DNA of 64,000 nt from Chloroflexi bacterium bin125 (GTDB lineage Bacteria; Chloroflexota; Dehalococcoidia; Bin125). Positions 24,112 to 33,410 of the stretch are shown piece after piece. Numbering within the stretch: the first letter of the stretch is position 1; each line of letters opens with the position of its first letter. Location: positions 40,023 through 104,022 of the forward strand of contig MPNM01000011.1 of NCBI GenBank assembly GCA_002239025.1, given 5' to 3'. A model generated the notes under the pieces. That model ran no database searches, was not told where the DNA came from, and saw only the letters and a list, made by a program, of their open reading frames with translations. Made by a program: the position numbers and the translations under genes.

Positions 24112-26277
24112 CTATGGGTTCTGTGGCAGGCGTTCGGCGAGGAACTCGGCGTAGTGCATGGTTTCGTGCGTTGCTCCGCTGGCGACGGCGCCGGCGCGCA
24201 GGTGCAGGGCGCAGCCGGGGTTGTTGGTGATCAAGGTGTCACAGCCGCTCTCGGCGACGCAGGCGAGCTTGCGCTCGAGGATTCCCTGCCCGACTTCCGG
24301 CGCGGCCATTGACGTGAGGCCGCCGAAGCCGCAGCAGACCTCGGGCTCTTCGAGCGGCAACCCAGACTCGCCGGTCAGGCGCTCGACGAGTTGGTCGATT
24401 CGGGCGAAGGGATCGCCTCGGTTGGAAGCCTGGCAAAATCGATGCGCGGTCCACGATCCATTTTCGGCCTCCTCGAGGCAGCCGTCGGGGAGTCGTCCGG
24501 GGCCGTCTAGCCAGGCGGCGAGGTCGTGGACGCGACGGCTGACAGCCGATGCTCGTTGCTGCATTTCAGGGTCGTCGTGGAAGAGCTCGGGCCAGTGTTC
24601 CTGCATGGCGATCACGCAGCTTGGCGCTGGAGTAACGATCTGGTTGGAGCCGCCTTCTAATGCCTCGATAGTTTGTCGTGCCATTGTTCGCGCCGACTCC
24701 CAGTCTCCGGCGTCGAATGCCGGCAGACCGCAGCAGTGCTGCGATTGCGGGATTCTGACCGATGCGCCGCCGGCCTCGATCAAGCGTGCCGCGGCGTCCA
24801 CGGCGGTGGGCAGCATACGGTCGGCGAGGCATTGGGCGAACAGATCGACTGCTTGTCCGGTCGCGGGCGACTCGGCGATCGGCGGCTGTGGTTTGCGGCT
24901 TCTGACCAGCGTTCGACCATTGCGAAGCGGCAGCGCCGGTACGGAACGCCAGCGCAGGCGCCTGGGCAGTGGAAGTCGAAGGTGGTCGCGACGGACGAGG
25001 CCGAACAGTCTCGCGCCCCCTGAAGCGAGCGCGCCCAGGCCCATCAGATGGTGAAACAGACTCGGTTTGGCCCAGAACCGAAGCGCGGCGCGTTCCCAGC
25101 GCGGCGCATGGCCCGCCTCGTGAGCGCGGTGGCGGACGTCGAGAATCTGCTTGGGCAGCGGAATGGCCACCGGACAGACGGTCTCGCAGGCGCCGCAGGA
25201 GACGCACAGACCCTGGGGACCAGCCGCCTCCTCAATGCCGTGGTGGAAGGTCGTGTTGACCAGCCCGACCGCGCCTGTGTAAATGTGGCCGAAGGTGTGT
25301 CCACCGACGACCTGGTACGGCGGGCAGACGTTGGCGCAGGCGCCGCAGCGGATACAGCGCAGGGCGTCCCCGATGCTGTCCGATTCGCGCATTTGGCGAC
25401 GGCCGTTGTCGAGCAGGATGATGTGCATCTCTTTGCCCGGCTGGGCTCCGGTGATGCAAGTGGTGTAGGTGCTCAGCGTCTGTGCAGTGGCGGAGCGCGG
25501 CAGGAGCTGGAGTTGGCGCTCAGCGTCGGCCCAGGAGGGGATCAGCTTTTCGATTCCGGCAGTGACGAAATGGACATCGGGCAGCGATGTGGCCAGCCGC
25601 ATGTTGCCTTCGTTGGTGACGACCATGATGCTGCCGGTCTCGGCGATCAGCGCGTTGGCGCCGGTCAGCCCTGCGCCGGCGGAGAGGTAATGTCCGCGCA
25701 GGCCGTCGCGAGCGCTGGCGACCATGGCCGGGATGTCGTCGGGATCGAACTCGCGATCGAGCTCCTTGCCCAGGATTTCTGCGACATACTGTCGCTTCTG
25801 ATGGATTGCGGGCATGACCAGATGTGAGGGCCGCTCCTCGGCGAGCTGCAACAGCCACTCACCCAGGTCGGTCTCGATGGCGATGATGCCTCGTTGTTCG
25901 AGCTCGTGATTGAGCTCGATCTCCTCAGAGACCATCGATTTGCTCTTGACAATCAGTTCGATGCCGCGAGACTTGCAGACGCTCGAGATGTAGTTGACTG
26001 CGTCCTCGGCGGTGCTCAGCTCGACGACGGTTGCGCCGGCCGCCTCGGCGTTGGCTCGGAATTGGGCAATGTGGTCGTCCCAGTGCTCGAGAGTGAGGTC
26101 CTTGACCGCGGCGAACTCCTGGCGCAGGTCGTCAAAGGAGCGTTCGGTGCGCTGCTCGAGACGTTTGACCTGTGCGTCGCGGCTTTCTCGCCACGAGCGC
26201 TGGAAGGTCAGCAGTCGCGGTTTCAGATCGGGATCGCCGACCGAGCGTCGATAGCGTTGTTTGAATGTTGTGCTCAT
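24112..26277 (-). CDS. Fused LutB-LutA-like protein (LUD domain + 2x[4Fe-4S] + CCG domains)
   Basis: GIELIVKSKSMVSEEIELNHELE and NALIAETGSIMVVTNEGN (LUD); CIRCGACANVCPPYQVVGG and CVSCGACETVCPVAIPL (Fe-S); FAQCLADRMLP, CCGLPAFDAGD, EVCCGFGG (LutA-like). Confidence 0.88.
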   Translation of the reverse strand: MSTTFKQRYRRSVGDPDLKPRLLTFQRSWRESRDAQVKRLEQRTERSFDDLRQEFAAVKDLTLEHWDDHIAQFRANAEAAGATVVELSTAEDAVNYISSVCKSRGIELIVKSKSMVSEEIELNHELEQRGIIAIETDLGEWLLQLAEERPSHLVMPAIHQKRQYVAEILGKELDREFDPDDIPAMVASARDGLRGHYLSAGAGLTGANALIAETGSIMVVTNEGNMRLATSLPDVHFVTAGIEKLIPSWADAERQLQLLPRSATAQTLSTYTTCITGAQPGKEMHIILLDNGRRQMRESDSIGDALRCIRCGACANVCPPYQVVGGHTFGHIYTGAVGLVNTTFHHGIEEAAGPQGLCVSCGACETVCPVAIPLPKQILDVRHRAHEAGHAPRWERAALRFWAKPSLFHHLMGLGALASGGARLFGLVRRDHLRLPLPRRLRWRSVPALPLRNGRTLVRSRKPQPPIAESPATGQAVDLFAQCLADRMLPTAVDAAARLIEAGGASVRIPQSQHCCGLPAFDAGDWESARTMARQTIEALEGGSNQIVTPAPSCVIAMQEHWPELFHDDPEMQQRASAVSRRVHDLAAWLDGPGRLPDGCLEEAENGSWTAHRFCQASNRGDPFARIDQLVERLTGESGLPLEEPEVCCGFGGLTSMAAPEVGQGILERKLACVAESGCDTLITNNPGCALHLRAGAVASGATHETMHYAEFLAERLPQNP

Positions 26278-26783
26278 GGCAGCACCGCCACGGTCAACCG
26301 ACTTGGTCCCTGAACTCCGATAGTCAGCGAGCGCTCGATATCGGCGGTTCTTGAGGGGCCAGTGACGAATGTTGCGTAGGCGGCAGCGCGGGGTTGTTGC
26401 GCGAGCCAGGCGAAGCCTTCGGCGAGCTCGTCGAGGATGTCAGTTTCCTGCACGGCCACGATGAGATGCCTGGTCAGCAGTGAGACGGCGCGATCGATCG
26501 TTGATGGTTCGATCAGTAGTACCGAGCCGGTTTCGGCGATCGCCAGTTGGGCCACGGCGATTCCGACCGGGCGGTCGGCGATGGAGCGTAGTGGATCGCT
26601 ATCGTCGGGCAGTTGCCCTCGTTGTAACTGTTCATATGCTGCAGGCGAGACGACGGGTGAGTCATCGCCCAGCGACGTTGCAAATGCCCAGAGGTCGTCC
26701 CAGGAATCGCAACGTCGGAACTCGCCCTGGGCGGCGTGCAAGCCCTCGGCGAACTGTGCGGCGCGCTGGTTGGTCGTGACCAT
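26274..26783 (-). CDS. LutC-like LUD-domain protein
   Basis: VAQLAIAETGSVLLIEPSTIDRAVSLLTRHLIVAV...TFVTGPSRTADIERSLTIGVQGP; ATGA overlap with the LutB-A fusion. Confidence 0.88.
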   Translation of the reverse strand: MVTTNQRAAQFAEGLHAAQGEFRRCDSWDDLWAFATSLGDDSPVVSPAAYEQLQRGQLPDDSDPLRSIADRPVGIAVAQLAIAETGSVLLIEPSTIDRAVSLLTRHLIVAVQETDILDELAEGFAWLAQQPRAAAYATFVTGPSRTADIERSLTIGVQGPSRLTVAVLP

Positions 26784-28303: not shown

Positions 28304-28831
28304 CTACGAACCAAGCAGAATCAACTTCCCCTGTTCATAGGCATCCAGAGCGCGGGCCTGAAGCCCTTCGATTCCGGCGCTTCCGATTGGGTGATCGACG
28401 AGGGCGTAGCGGAAGTCGGGCATTCCCAGGGTCTTGGCGATCATGCGGCCGGTGGGGTCGAATGGGTGGGTGCAGAGGACCAGGCCGGGCTTGCCGTACT
28501 GCTCGAAGGTGATGCCGTCGTGCACACTGCACGTTGAGCAGGAGCCTCAATCACCCACCGCGGTGATCAGGAAATCAACATCGTTGGCGATTCGCTCCAG
28601 CACCTGTGGCTCGGCGATCCGGCTGGCGTTGCGCTTGCCGGAGTCGATCACGATGTTGCAGTTTGCCTGCTGCTCGAAGACCTCGGCGGTGTAGCGCAAC
28701 AGTTTGTCGGCGTTGACTTTGCCGTTGGAGAAGAGGCCGATGCGCAGGCCCTCGACTGAGGTCAGCCGGGGGGCGGAGCAAAAGCCGGTTGGCGTGGGTT
28801 CGCCAGTGGGGTCGAAGAGTTCGAGCGACAT
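28304..28831 (-). CDS. UGSC-motif selenoprotein (in-frame TGA at 28547-28549 read as Sec)
   Basis: Single frame MSLELFDPTGEPTPTGF...RIANDVDFLITAVGD-U-GSC-STCSVHDGITFEQYGKPGLVLCTHPFDPTGRMIAKTLGMPDFRYALVDHPI...; the ORF track splits it at the TGA into 28547..29056 and 28304..28525. Confidence 0.85.
28519..28533 (-). promoter_or_regulatory. Putative bacterial SECIS hairpin
   Basis: CGTGCA-GTG-TGCACG perfect 6-bp stem with 3-nt G/U loop, starting 13 nt after the UGA (minus strand). Confidence 0.65.
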
Positions 28832-28851
28832 GATGGACTCCGAGTCTGAGG

Positions 28852-29904
28852 TCAGCAGTCGAGGCAGACGCCGATGGCTTTGGTCTGATAGATGGAGTTG
28901 CGTCCGCGACTCCAGGAGGGCAGGAAGGCTGAGTGTCCGCCGGCCTCGCCGCCGGCGACGACGAGCAGGATGTCGTCGGGGGTGCGACCTCGGCGGAACG
29001 CGCCATTGCCTCGCTCGCCCTCGGCAAGTCCGTCGCCTGGGTGCCCGGCAGGCCACTTGCCCTTGCTCAGCATTTCTTCGGGATCACGGCTGGCGTGCTC
29101 GAAGAGGTATGCCTGGACATCCTGTTTGGTCATCCCACCTGACGCGGCGATCTCTGCGTGTTCAGGCGACATCACGACCAGTGACTGGCCATCAGTCAGC
29201 GCGCCCAGCGAGGCCATGGCGTCGGCAAAGGTGTCGAGCAGGAGTTTTGGGTCGCTGGTGTAGTGATTCTCGACGTTGTAGAAGCCGGAGGCTGCGAAGA
29301 CGGTGGCGGTCGACACCTCGGGCGGGAAGTCGAGCGAGACGTGCAATGGCTCCCATGGGCTATTGAGGATGTTCTCGGCGATGCAACAGCCGTACTTCCC
29401 GGGCCAGCCGGTGGTCGAGCGATCGGAGATGCCCGGGATCATCTGGAAGATGTTCATGATCACCAGGCGCATCGCCCGTCCGATGGTCGCGTTGGCGCGG
29501 TTGCCCGGGCCGAAGACGTTGACGCTGGCGTTCATCCCGATTTCGTCGCGGATATCTCCCGAGATGATCACCACAGGTGCTGAGCCTCCGGTGCTGGCGG
29601 TCGAACCGTGGAAGTTGTAGGCGTCTTCGTTCAGACCCTCGAGCGCAGCCAGCACGGTAGGGAAGTACTGCGGCTGGCAGCCCGCCATGACGGCGTTGAT
29701 GGCAGCCGATTGAACGCTGCATTCGCGTCCAGTGGCGGGATGCCGGGCGACGATTTCCTCAGGAGGGCGTCCGGCGGCCATGAGGAATCGTTCGACCCGC
29801 TCACGAGCCGGAGGGACGACCGGAAGCCCGTCGGTCCAGCCCTGCTCGTAGCACCAGTCGATAGCGGAGAGTTCGTCGGTGAGAGTGTGGGTCTTGGTGG
29901 TCAT
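28852..29904 (-). CDS. Conserved hypothetical protein with C-terminal CLDC, directly upstream of the UGSC selenoprotein
   Basis: MTTKTHTLTDELSAIDWCYEQGWTDGLPVVPPARERVERFL...GVCLDC; start trimmed from 30147 because the upstream part is repeat-derived. Confidence 0.7.
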   Translation of the reverse strand: MTTKTHTLTDELSAIDWCYEQGWTDGLPVVPPARERVERFLMAAGRPPEEIVARHPATGRECSVQSAAINAVMAGCQPQYFPTVLAALEGLNEDAYNFHGSTASTGGSAPVVIISGDIRDEIGMNASVNVFGPGNRANATIGRAMRLVIMNIFQMIPGISDRSTTGWPGKYGCCIAENILNSPWEPLHVSLDFPPEVSTATVFAASGFYNVENHYTSDPKLLLDTFADAMASLGALTDGQSLVVMSPEHAEIAASGGMTKQDVQAYLFEHASRDPEEMLSKGKWPAGHPGDGLAEGERGNGAFRRGRTPDDILLVVAGGEAGGHSAFLPSWSRGRNSIYQTKAIGVCLDC

Positions 29905-30279: not shown

Positions 30280-31935
30280 ATGGTGCAGAGGAATGGCGCC
30301 GGAGGCCAGCAGGTTGAGGATGATCGTCCGCTGGTCAGCGGGCCGTCGCTTGGGCCGATTCCTTACTACTGGGTCGCGGCGATTGTTGTTTGTGTCGGCA
30401 CATTCCTGGGCGTGGTTGACAACTCGATCACGAACATTGCGCTGCCCACGCTGAGCAACGAGTTCGGCCGACCGGCGGACGACGTGGTCTGGGTCGCGCT
30501 GTCATTCATCGTCGTCAGCACTGGCTTGTCCTTGACCATGGGTCGGTTGGGCGACATCTACGGCCGCAAGATGCTCTACGTGGTCGGATTCATCGTGCTG
30601 ACAATCGCCACGGGATTGTCGGCGATATCGGGGTCGCTGGAAGAACTGATTGGCACCCGAGTCCTGCAGGCGGTCGGTTCCGCGATGACGATGGCAAACG
30701 GAGCGGCCATCATCACTGCCGCATTTCCGCCGTCGAAGCGTGGCACCGGATTGGGACTGATGGTCTCGACCGTTGGCGCGGGCGCGATGGCGGGTCCAGC
30801 GCTTGGCGGTGTCTTGCTTGATCTGATCGATTGGCGCGCGATCTTCTGGACGCGTGTCCCATTGGGCGTCGTCGGCACGTTCCTGGCCTGGCGGCTGCTG
30901 GTTGATGGTTCTCCCGACAACCGGCCGCGGGGACTCGACATTCCCGGCGCGCTGCTGCTCTTCGGGATGCTGGGCTGCCTGACATTCGGGATCAACCGCG
31001 GCGGCAGTATCGGCTGGACGTCGCCGTTCATGATCACGACGTTTGCCCTGAGCGCGATCTTCCTCGTTGGATTCATCGTGGTCGAACGGCGAACGTTCTC
31101 TCCGATCGTGGACCTGGGACTGTTCAAGGGTCGCGGGTTCAGTTTCGGCATCTCGGCAGCGATCTTGCAGTTCATGGGGATGAGCGCCTCGCTCTATCTG
31201 ACGCCCTGGTTGTGGCAATTCGGGCGCGGGTTCTCGCCGATTGAGATTGCGGCGGTGATGCTCCCGATGCCGATGGCGATGATGCTCTGGTCGCCGATTT
31301 CAGGGCGTATCTCGGATCGCCTGAGTTCGAGGCCGCTGACCACAGCCGGCATGATCATGGTCTGCGCCGCACTCTTCTTGCTCTCCAGAACGACGATAGA
31401 TACGTCGCCTGTCGACTTTGGCCTGCGGATGCTGCTATTGGGTATCGGCACGTCGACCTTCAGCACCCCGAACACGGCGGTGATCATGTCCGCAGTTCCG
31501 CCTCAACGTCTGGGCACGGCTTCGGCAGCGCAGACCACGGCGCGCACGATCGGCAATGCGATCGGAGCCGCGATCTGGGTCGCGATCTTTGTATCCGTCG
31601 CCGGCGCGGTTGGTGAGTCGGTGAGTTCGCCGGCGCTGATCATCGACGGATTCCGCACGGCGCTGTTGGTCGCTGCCATCTGCACCGCTCCGGCGATCCT
31701 GTTCTCATTGGTTGGTGGTCAGCGCGGCGTGCGTAAGGTGGCGGAGAAGGCGGCGGTTGGGGCTCAGGCCGTGCGCGAAGCAATCGAGTTCGAGATATCG
31801 CTCATGGTGCCCCTGTTCCGCGGCCAAAAGTCGATATCACATAGTGAAATTGGTTTGCGCCGGGAGAACGGACTCAACGGCGTCAGTGAGCCACGACCGG
31901 TGAACACCGCTCAGGTGGAGGAGGAGTCGAAGTGA
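30280..31935 (+). CDS. MFS transporter, DHA2/EmrB-like drug efflux family
   Basis: VDNSITNIALPTLSNEFG; LTMGRLGDIYGRKMLYVVGF; about 14 hydrophobic segments. Confidence 0.92.
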   Translation: MVQRNGAGGQQVEDDRPLVSGPSLGPIPYYWVAAIVVCVGTFLGVVDNSITNIALPTLSNEFGRPADDVVWVALSFIVVSTGLSLTMGRLGDIYGRKMLYVVGFIVLTIATGLSAISGSLEELIGTRVLQAVGSAMTMANGAAIITAAFPPSKRGTGLGLMVSTVGAGAMAGPALGGVLLDLIDWRAIFWTRVPLGVVGTFLAWRLLVDGSPDNRPRGLDIPGALLLFGMLGCLTFGINRGGSIGWTSPFMITTFALSAIFLVGFIVVERRTFSPIVDLGLFKGRGFSFGISAAILQFMGMSASLYLTPWLWQFGRGFSPIEIAAVMLPMPMAMMLWSPISGRISDRLSSRPLTTAGMIMVCAALFLLSRTTIDTSPVDFGLRMLLLGIGTSTFSTPNTAVIMSAVPPQRLGTASAAQTTARTIGNAIGAAIWVAIFVSVAGAVGESVSSPALIIDGFRTALLVAAICTAPAILFSLVGGQRGVRKVAEKAAVGAQAVREAIEFEISLMVPLFRGQKSISHSEIGLRRENGLNGVSEPRPVNTAQVEEESK

Positions 31936-33410
31936 CCCATGTCATCGTCGTTGGGGCTGGCAATGCGGCGTTGTGCGCCGCGTTGGCTGCGAGGGAGCGC
32001 GGGGCTGACGTGACGGTGCTGGAGAAGGCGCCGGAAGGCGAGCGCGGCGGCAACACATACTTCACCGGTGGTGGCTTTCGCTTTCCCTACGAAGGGATGG
32101 ACGACATCCGGCGCGTCATCCCCGACCTGAGCGAGGCAGAGATCGAGCGAGTTGATGTCGGTTCCTATACGACCGCGAAGTTTCGCGATGACCTCGCGCG
32201 GGTCACCGATGGGTTGATTGACGATGGCATGGCCTCGTCGTTAGTGCGTGAGGCAGCGCCGACGATGGAATGGCTGCATGGACAGGGCGTCAAGTTCACG
32301 TTGATGACCGGTCGGCAGGCGAACGAGGTCGGTGGGAAGCTGGTCTTCTATGGCGGTCTGACGGTGGAGGCTGTGGGGGCAGGGAAGGGGCTGTCGGACC
32401 AGGAGTTTGAGGCGGCTGAACGGGTCGGTGTGAATGTGCGCTACGGCTGCAAGGTGGTCAATCTGTTGCGCGAGGGTCGGCGAATCCGTGGCGTCGAGCT
32501 CTGGACTGATGATGCGGTGGAGGAGCTGGAAGCGGACGCTGTGGTGCTGGCTGCGGGTGGCTTTGAAGCGAACATCGAGATGCGGACTCGCTACCTGGGT
32601 CCCGGCTGGGACATGGCCAAGGTGCGCGGCTCGCGGTTCAACACGGGCGATGCGATTCAGGCTGCCATCGATGCCGGCGCGCAGCCGTTCGGTAACTGGT
32701 CGGGCGCTCATGCGGTCGCCTGGGATCTGAACGCTCCGCCAACAGGGAATCGGATTGTTGCCGATTTGTACCAGAAGCACTCGTATCCGTATGGGCTGAT
32801 CGTGAATGTCGATGGCGAGCGGTTCGTCGATGAGGGTGCAGATATTCGCAACTACACCTATGCGAAGTACGGTCGAGCGATCCTGGCACAGCCGGAGCGG
32901 GCGGCGTTCCAACTGTTCGATCAGCGCACGGCACGTCTGTTGCGCGATGAGTATCACGTACGCCAAGTGACGATGGCGCAGGCTGACACGATTCATGAGT
33001 TGGCTGATGCCCTCGGTGTAGATCCCGAAGGACTTGAGCGCACGATCGACGCGTACAACGCGTCCTGTTCAGAAAATGGGCTTGCGCAGTTCAATCCTTC
33101 GGAACTCGACGGTGTTGGCACGTCAGGAATTCGTCCGCCGAAATCGAACTGGGCGCTGCCGTTTGATTCTCCGCCTTACCAGGGTTACGCGGTGACCTGC
33201 GGGATCACGTTCACCTTCGGCGGCCTCAAGATCGATCCGCGCAGCGGTCAGGTATTGGACACGGAAGATCGGCCGATGTCTGGCCTGTATGCCGCCGGCG
33301 AGCTGGTCGGTGGCCTGTTCTACAACAACTACGCGGGAGGGTCGGGTCTGATGGCGGGCAGCGTGTTTGGTCGGATCGCTGGGAGGAGCGCGGCTGGTGT
33401 CGATATCTGA
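31932..33410 (+). CDS. FAD-dependent tricarballylate dehydrogenase/fumarate reductase-like flavoprotein
   Basis: VIVVGAGNAALCAALAARERGADVTVLEKAPEGERGGNTYFTGGGFRFPY; NYAGGSGLMAGSVFGRIAG; ATGA overlap with MFS gene. Confidence 0.9.
   Translation: MTHVIVVGAGNAALCAALAARERGADVTVLEKAPEGERGGNTYFTGGGFRFPYEGMDDIRRVIPDLSEAEIERVDVGSYTTAKFRDDLARVTDGLIDDGMASSLVREAAPTMEWLHGQGVKFTLMTGRQANEVGGKLVFYGGLTVEAVGAGKGLSDQEFEAAERVGVNVRYGCKVVNLLREGRRIRGVELWTDDAVEELEADAVVLAAGGFEANIEMRTRYLGPGWDMAKVRGSRFNTGDAIQAAIDAGAQPFGNWSGAHAVAWDLNAPPTGNRIVADLYQKHSYPYGLIVNVDGERFVDEGADIRNYTYAKYGRAILAQPERAAFQLFDQRTARLLRDEYHVRQVTMAQADTIHELADALGVDPEGLERTIDAYNASCSENGLAQFNPSELDGVGTSGIRPPKSNWALPFDSPPYQGYAVTCGITFTFGGLKIDPRSGQVLDTEDRPMSGLYAAGELVGGLFYNNYAGGSGLMAGSVFGRIAGRSAAGVDI

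Follow-up and report, generated by a model that had tools for sequence, protein, structure and literature searches.

The selenocysteine (Sec) of PrdB and of GrdB, from D-proline and glycine reductase respectively, acts as a nucleophile. A UxxCxxC motif has been stated for GrdB, together with a model of the bacterial SECIS (bSECIS), in PMC13188914. Another selenoprotein family, UGSC, was described as a major marine family in the GOS data, comprising 255 forms with Sec and 21 with Cys (PMC2398784). The published account of UGSC gives no function and no partner, suggests a thioredoxin-like fold, and reports a fusion of UGSC to an unnamed domain, 'Unknown_1' (PMC2398784).

Here we analyzed a stretch of 64,000 nucleotides from Chloroflexi bacterium bin125 (the window), which carries a gene of this family. 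The motif, the length, the domain and the in-frame TGA all match those of the UGSC family (PF24696, NF041046) with no difference in kind, and the protein belongs to this selenoprotein family, which was known by 2008, and does not represent a new kind. Compared with the published account (PMC2398784), the genome here holds four paralogues, of which the window protein is one. What is new here is the evidence for a pairing with an unnamed partner and for a distant tie to the active-site domain of glycine and proline reductases.

A UGSC selenoprotein gene split by ORF calling

On the minus strand of the window, an ORF at 28547..29056 stops at a TGA (28549-28547) and an ORF at 28304..28525 resumes in the same frame. 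The sequence-only reading had taken the two for one gene split at an in-frame TGA and had recognized the motif of the UGSC selenoprotein family. Both proposals were borne out when the 175-aa read-through product was compared with the family. The Pfam UGSC model (PF24696) matched residues 5-167 of 175, covering both sides of the TGA in that one frame, with 152.6 bits against a gathering cut-off of 25 (E=1.5e-44). With Cys substituted for Sec, the NCBIfam UGSC model (NF041046) gave 119.1 bits against a curated cut-off of 125 (E 1.5e-34). The features of the gene are:

28304..28831, minus strand: UGSC selenoprotein gene, 175 codons, ATG start at 28831, TAG stop at 28306-28304
28547..28549, minus strand: in-frame TGA, Sec95, in the motif D-U-G-S-C-S-T-C
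28838..28841, minus strand: GGAG, Shine-Dalgarno-like, 6 nt 5' of the UGSC ATG, read from the sequence

Read through from 28831 to 28304 with TGA as Sec, the product is 175 aa long, MSLELFDPT...DVDFLITAVGD-U-GSCSTCSVHDGITFEQYGKP...LLGS, and is followed by TAG. The ATG at 28831, preceded by the GGAG, is the true start. A GTG start at 29056 was rejected as spurious because the stretch of ORF 28547..29056 that lies 5' of 28831 runs across the 3' end of the upstream gene in a different frame. Ordinary gene calling cuts the gene in two because its UGA codon stands for selenocysteine.

We scanned 84,980 species genomes for homologues with a pattern that starts 3' of the Sec codon and leaves the Sec codon itself out. 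The scan returned 80 loci from several phyla, all 80 with TGA at the Sec codon. Across 20 genomes belonging to the same order, every UGSC match except one fragment contained exactly one TGA, and in the phylum UGSC was found in 42 of 400 genomes, nearly always with one TGA. Three divergent members that had no TGA were inspected: one had Cys at this column and two had neither Sec nor Cys. The expectation of Sec or Cys at this column in homologues was thus confirmed, with Sec almost without exception. The second Cys of UxxC was invariant in an alignment of diverse UGSC sequences, and the third Cys of the motif was absent from some homologues. The nearest named relatives were metagenome bins of Chloroflexota and Dehalococcoidia, and they point to a Dehalococcoidia bacterium as the host. 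UGSC was also carried by Alpha- and Gammaproteobacteria, by SAR202 and by one acidimicrobiian; the proteobacterial carriers include cultured Reyranella, with the same TGA in Reyranella soli (L107) and Reyranella massiliensis (L100). The window's own genome contained four UGSC genes with one in-frame TGA apiece. These four copies (window 28304-28831 and L022-L024) sit in four unrelated surroundings, and in the copy at L024 the motif is UGGC in place of UGSC.

The nonsynonymous/synonymous ratio 3' of the TGA was 0.04-0.20 against five close relatives and 0.32-0.35 against two remoter relatives. Judged by these ratios, the UGSC codons past the TGA are under purifying selection.

Selenocysteine machinery of the genome

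The genome from which the window derives is a draft of 3.68 Mb in 66 contigs, with 96.7% completeness and 2.4% contamination. A search for the Sec machinery, which had been suggested on first reading, found tRNA-Sec (66.4 bits; anticodon TCA, ARAGORN) as well as selA (515.7 bits), selB (328.3 bits) and selD (350.8 bits), each above its curated cut-off. By these matches, the predicted Sec machinery of the genome (selA, selB, selC, selD) is complete. The selD gene (L019) carries an in-frame TGA of its own, in CGG-U-GSKF, which makes SelD itself a selenoprotein. The in-frame TGA and the Sec machinery are common to SelD and UGSC, whereas SelD is selenophosphate synthetase, an enzyme unrelated to UGSC. 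The window gene is a genuine selenoprotein gene of the known UGSC family, and Sec insertion at codon 95 is predicted from conservation and the machinery.

A SECIS hairpin downstream of the UGA

A local hairpin was found 3' of the UGA:

28519..28533, minus strand: SECIS hairpin CGTGCA-GTG-TGCACG, 6-bp stem and 3-nt loop starting with G

The loop, GTG, lies 19 nt 3' of the UGA, and the geometry of the hairpin fits the bSECIS model of PMC13188914. In 81 out of 81 UGSC genes the hairpin was more stable than in codon-shuffled controls. Across 24 diverse sequences, 99.3% of the stem cells were paired, compared with 92.3% in shuffles, and both sides had changed in 6 cells, compared with 0.4 in shuffles. 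These both-side changes occurred in three of the six stem pairs, and no shuffle reached the covariation score. Simple folding of the 53-nt RNA stretch 3' of the TGA yielded an energy that was not significant (z -0.12); the case for a SECIS was built on the local hairpin, the codon-shuffle controls and the covariation, not on the global fold.

The stem (28519-28533) overlaps the codons for Cys-Ser-Val-His, and compensatory changes in the RNA swap amino acids. The stem was still paired where Cys-x-x-His was replaced by Ala-x-x-Ala (L061), Tyr-x-x-Tyr (L085) or Trp-x-x-His (L023). Because compensatory stem changes alter the amino acids, RNA structure may impose part of the protein conservation 3' of the UGSC motif.

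An upstream partner gene

A second gene lies directly upstream of UGSC:

28852..29904, minus strand: partner gene, 350 aa, 20 nt upstream of UGSC, ending GVCLDC-stop

Pfam and NCBIfam searches with the partner protein matched no family, and we built a partner profile from the five copies in the window's genome. At nearly every locus with enough flanking sequence the partner adjoined UGSC, usually just upstream and in the same orientation. Of the 400 genomes of the phylum surveyed above, 42 had UGSC, 42 had the partner and 41 had both, so that 41 out of the 43 genomes having either had both. The two were fused into a single protein at two loci (L085 and L086). The linkage, the co-occurrence and the natural fusions indicate that UGSC works as a pair with its upstream partner, and the two proteins probably form a complex. 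The domain 'Unknown_1' of PMC2398784 may be the same as this partner.

Partner homologues at seven loci (L025, L047, L075, L079, L082, L083, L084) had an extra N-terminal domain. Most of these fused domains contained a CxxC-type motif, and their thioredoxin-like match was weak (best E 0.006, below the Pfam cut-offs). At L025 (6222-9755), two partner paralogues flank UGSC, and the first of them is fused to an N-terminal thioredoxin-like domain with CxxC (CDTC). Partners of the window's subfamily have a C-terminal tail GVC-x-DC, which was present in 21 of 38 partner rows. Invariant residues of the partner are D25, N70, R143, K170 and E177.

Within the window, the neighbors of the pair were genes for an acyl-CoA dehydrogenase, LutB/LutC-like proteins, an amidohydrolase, a thiolase-like protein, a TcuA-like flavoprotein and a carboxyltransferase. 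Gene order beyond the pair was kept only in close relatives. The conserved unit is the UGSC-partner pair, not the surrounding cluster. The LutB-like protein (24112-26783, minus strand) is extended to 721 aa and lies beside a LutC-like LUD protein; it is LdhH-like, at 627 bits against a cut-off of 800. The TcuA-like protein (31932-33410, plus strand) resembles FAD-dependent tricarballylate dehydrogenase, with 561 bits, above the cut-off.

A structure model of the partner had a pLDDT of 88.6, and its comparison with the PDB returned no convincing solved relative and no known fold. A PDB sequence search found no chain related to UGSC or to the partner, and a profile comparison of the partner with UGSC found no relation. 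A fumarase-like assignment was also considered, the top PDB matches being Fe-S class I fumarases (E 1.1e-3), and was rejected on TM values of 0.18-0.31 (near 0.25).

Predicted fold and distant kinship with GrdB and PrdB

The AF2 model of UGSC (pLDDT 88.5) was an alternating beta/alpha domain of Rossmann-like appearance, with Sec95 placed after the strand at 87-91 and just before the helix at 96-110. In a Foldseek search with this model, flavodoxin-like and TIR structures matched weakly (TM 0.4-0.5), and the top 50 contained no thioredoxin. The predicted fold is Rossmann-like, and the published suggestion of a thioredoxin-like fold is not supported by the model.

For a profile comparison with UGSC, we extended GrdB/PrdB-like proteins past their own Sec. 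In hhalign, run as a pairwise comparison and not as a database search, UGSC and the extended GrdB/PrdB-like profile gave a probability of 94.6% and a score of 55.2. The maximum score from 150 column shuffles was 22.4 and that of the reversed profile 15.1. Masking the motif lowered the score to 35.1 and left the register unchanged. The similarity spanned approximately 90-115 columns and aligned the Sec of UGSC to the Sec of UGTC. Common to UGSC and the GrdB/PrdB-like proteins were UxxC, then E-x-x-G-x-P, and an H-P/G element; the UxxCxxC motif is common to GrdB and UGSC, and both families are Sec-rich. These profile comparisons indicate a distant homology between UGSC and the C-terminal domain that carries the Sec in GrdB/PrdB, the selenoproteins of glycine and D-proline reductase. 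To the extent of the literature searched, this link has not been stated before.

A PF07355 (GRDB) search with UGSC gave no match even at E<=1, and UGSC was not assigned as a member of that family. The plain search misses the link because the PF07355 model stops short of the Sec. A PDB sequence search with GRDB found no convincing relative; the single low-E match, a de novo design, was dismissed, as no single stretch matches alone. GRDB-like proteins with U-x-x-C (UPLC, UGLC, UPFC) were common in Chloroflexota (L172, L174, L177, L181 and others), and the window's own genome had five GRDB matches.

There were also differences from GrdB/PrdB. UGSC is a protein of 175 aa, and its partner had no detectable similarity to GrdE, which like PrdA is a pyruvoyl-type partner, in a comparison of the partner profile with one GrdE-like sequence (0.2%). 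The analogy to glycine reductase is incomplete because the partner is unrelated to this one GrdE-like sequence and has no known fold.

Proposed mechanism and alternative explanations

Overall, it is very probable that the window encodes a genuine UGSC selenoprotein with a GrdB/PrdB-related, Rossmann-like domain that acts with its partner, most likely as a Sec-dependent reductase. In the proposed mechanism, tRNA-Sec would be charged via SelA and SelD, and SelB, bound to the hairpin 3' of the UGA, would deliver Sec-tRNA and so place Sec at codon 95, as conservation and the machinery suggest. UGSC would form a compact Rossmann-like alpha/beta domain with the Sec at the N-terminus of a helix. The partner would then bind the substrate, which the Sec selenolate would attack. 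The motif cysteines would resolve the resulting selenosulfide or Se-adduct, and a thioredoxin-like dithiol, as the presumed electron supply, would reset the enzyme. That UGSC and its partner form a two-subunit Sec-dependent reductase working in this way is a proposal we hold at close to, but just under, even chances.

The 2008 marine survey points to another explanation, in which UGSC is a thioredoxin-fold thiol oxidoreductase that uses U-x-x-C in general antioxidant defence (PMC2398784). The resemblance of UxxC to CxxC redox motifs and the thioredoxin-like domains fused to partner homologues are consistent with it. We consider it unlikely, as the Rossmann-like beta-alpha sandwich of the AF2 model and the Foldseek result both run counter to it, the profile homology leads to GrdB/PrdB, and an enzyme acting on a substrate better suits both a partner that is always present and a location within catabolic clusters.

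The pair could also be a non-reductive Sec enzyme in which the partner would carry out the main chemistry, for example as a lyase, and the Sec would serve as a nucleophile or metal ligand. The invariant second Cys of UxxC and the CxDC tail in 21 of 38 partners, which are typical of thiol redox chemistry, make this improbable. It would agree with the nucleophilic role of the Sec in PrdB and GrdB and with the absence of the third Cys from some homologues; the Fe-S class I fumarases, the best but weak PDB matches of the partner model, would also suggest it, but their TM of approximately 0.25 amounts to no fold match.

The idea that the TGA is a real stop, in a pseudogene, a truncated protein or through a sequencing error, is hardly credible: automatic ORF calling does break the gene there and the window does come from a 66-contig draft, but the TGA in 80 out of 80 homologues with both flanks conserved, the ratio of 0.04-0.35 past it and the covarying SECIS hairpin rule out pseudogene and sequencing error, in agreement with the sequence-only reading, which had doubted a pseudogene from the coherent flanks.

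Implications for the UGSC family

The reductase reading may extend beyond this locus. The UGSC-partner pair may represent a new and widespread class of two-subunit Sec reductases, in which the Sec domain would share ancestry with that of glycine and proline reductases, a partner of possibly new fold would replace the pyruvoyl subunit, and the enzymes would catabolize environmental organic compounds in Chloroflexota and Proteobacteria. We offer this broader proposal tentatively, at somewhat less than an even chance. The window gene is an ordinary member of its family, and its correct annotation is worthwhile because standard gene callers break UGSC genes. Since 2008 UGSC has been counted among the most common selenoprotein families of the sea, with no function assigned to it. 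The strict co-occurrence with a partner, the natural fusions, the predicted fold at odds with the published suggestion and the distant link to glycine and proline reductases now make the question of UGSC function testable.
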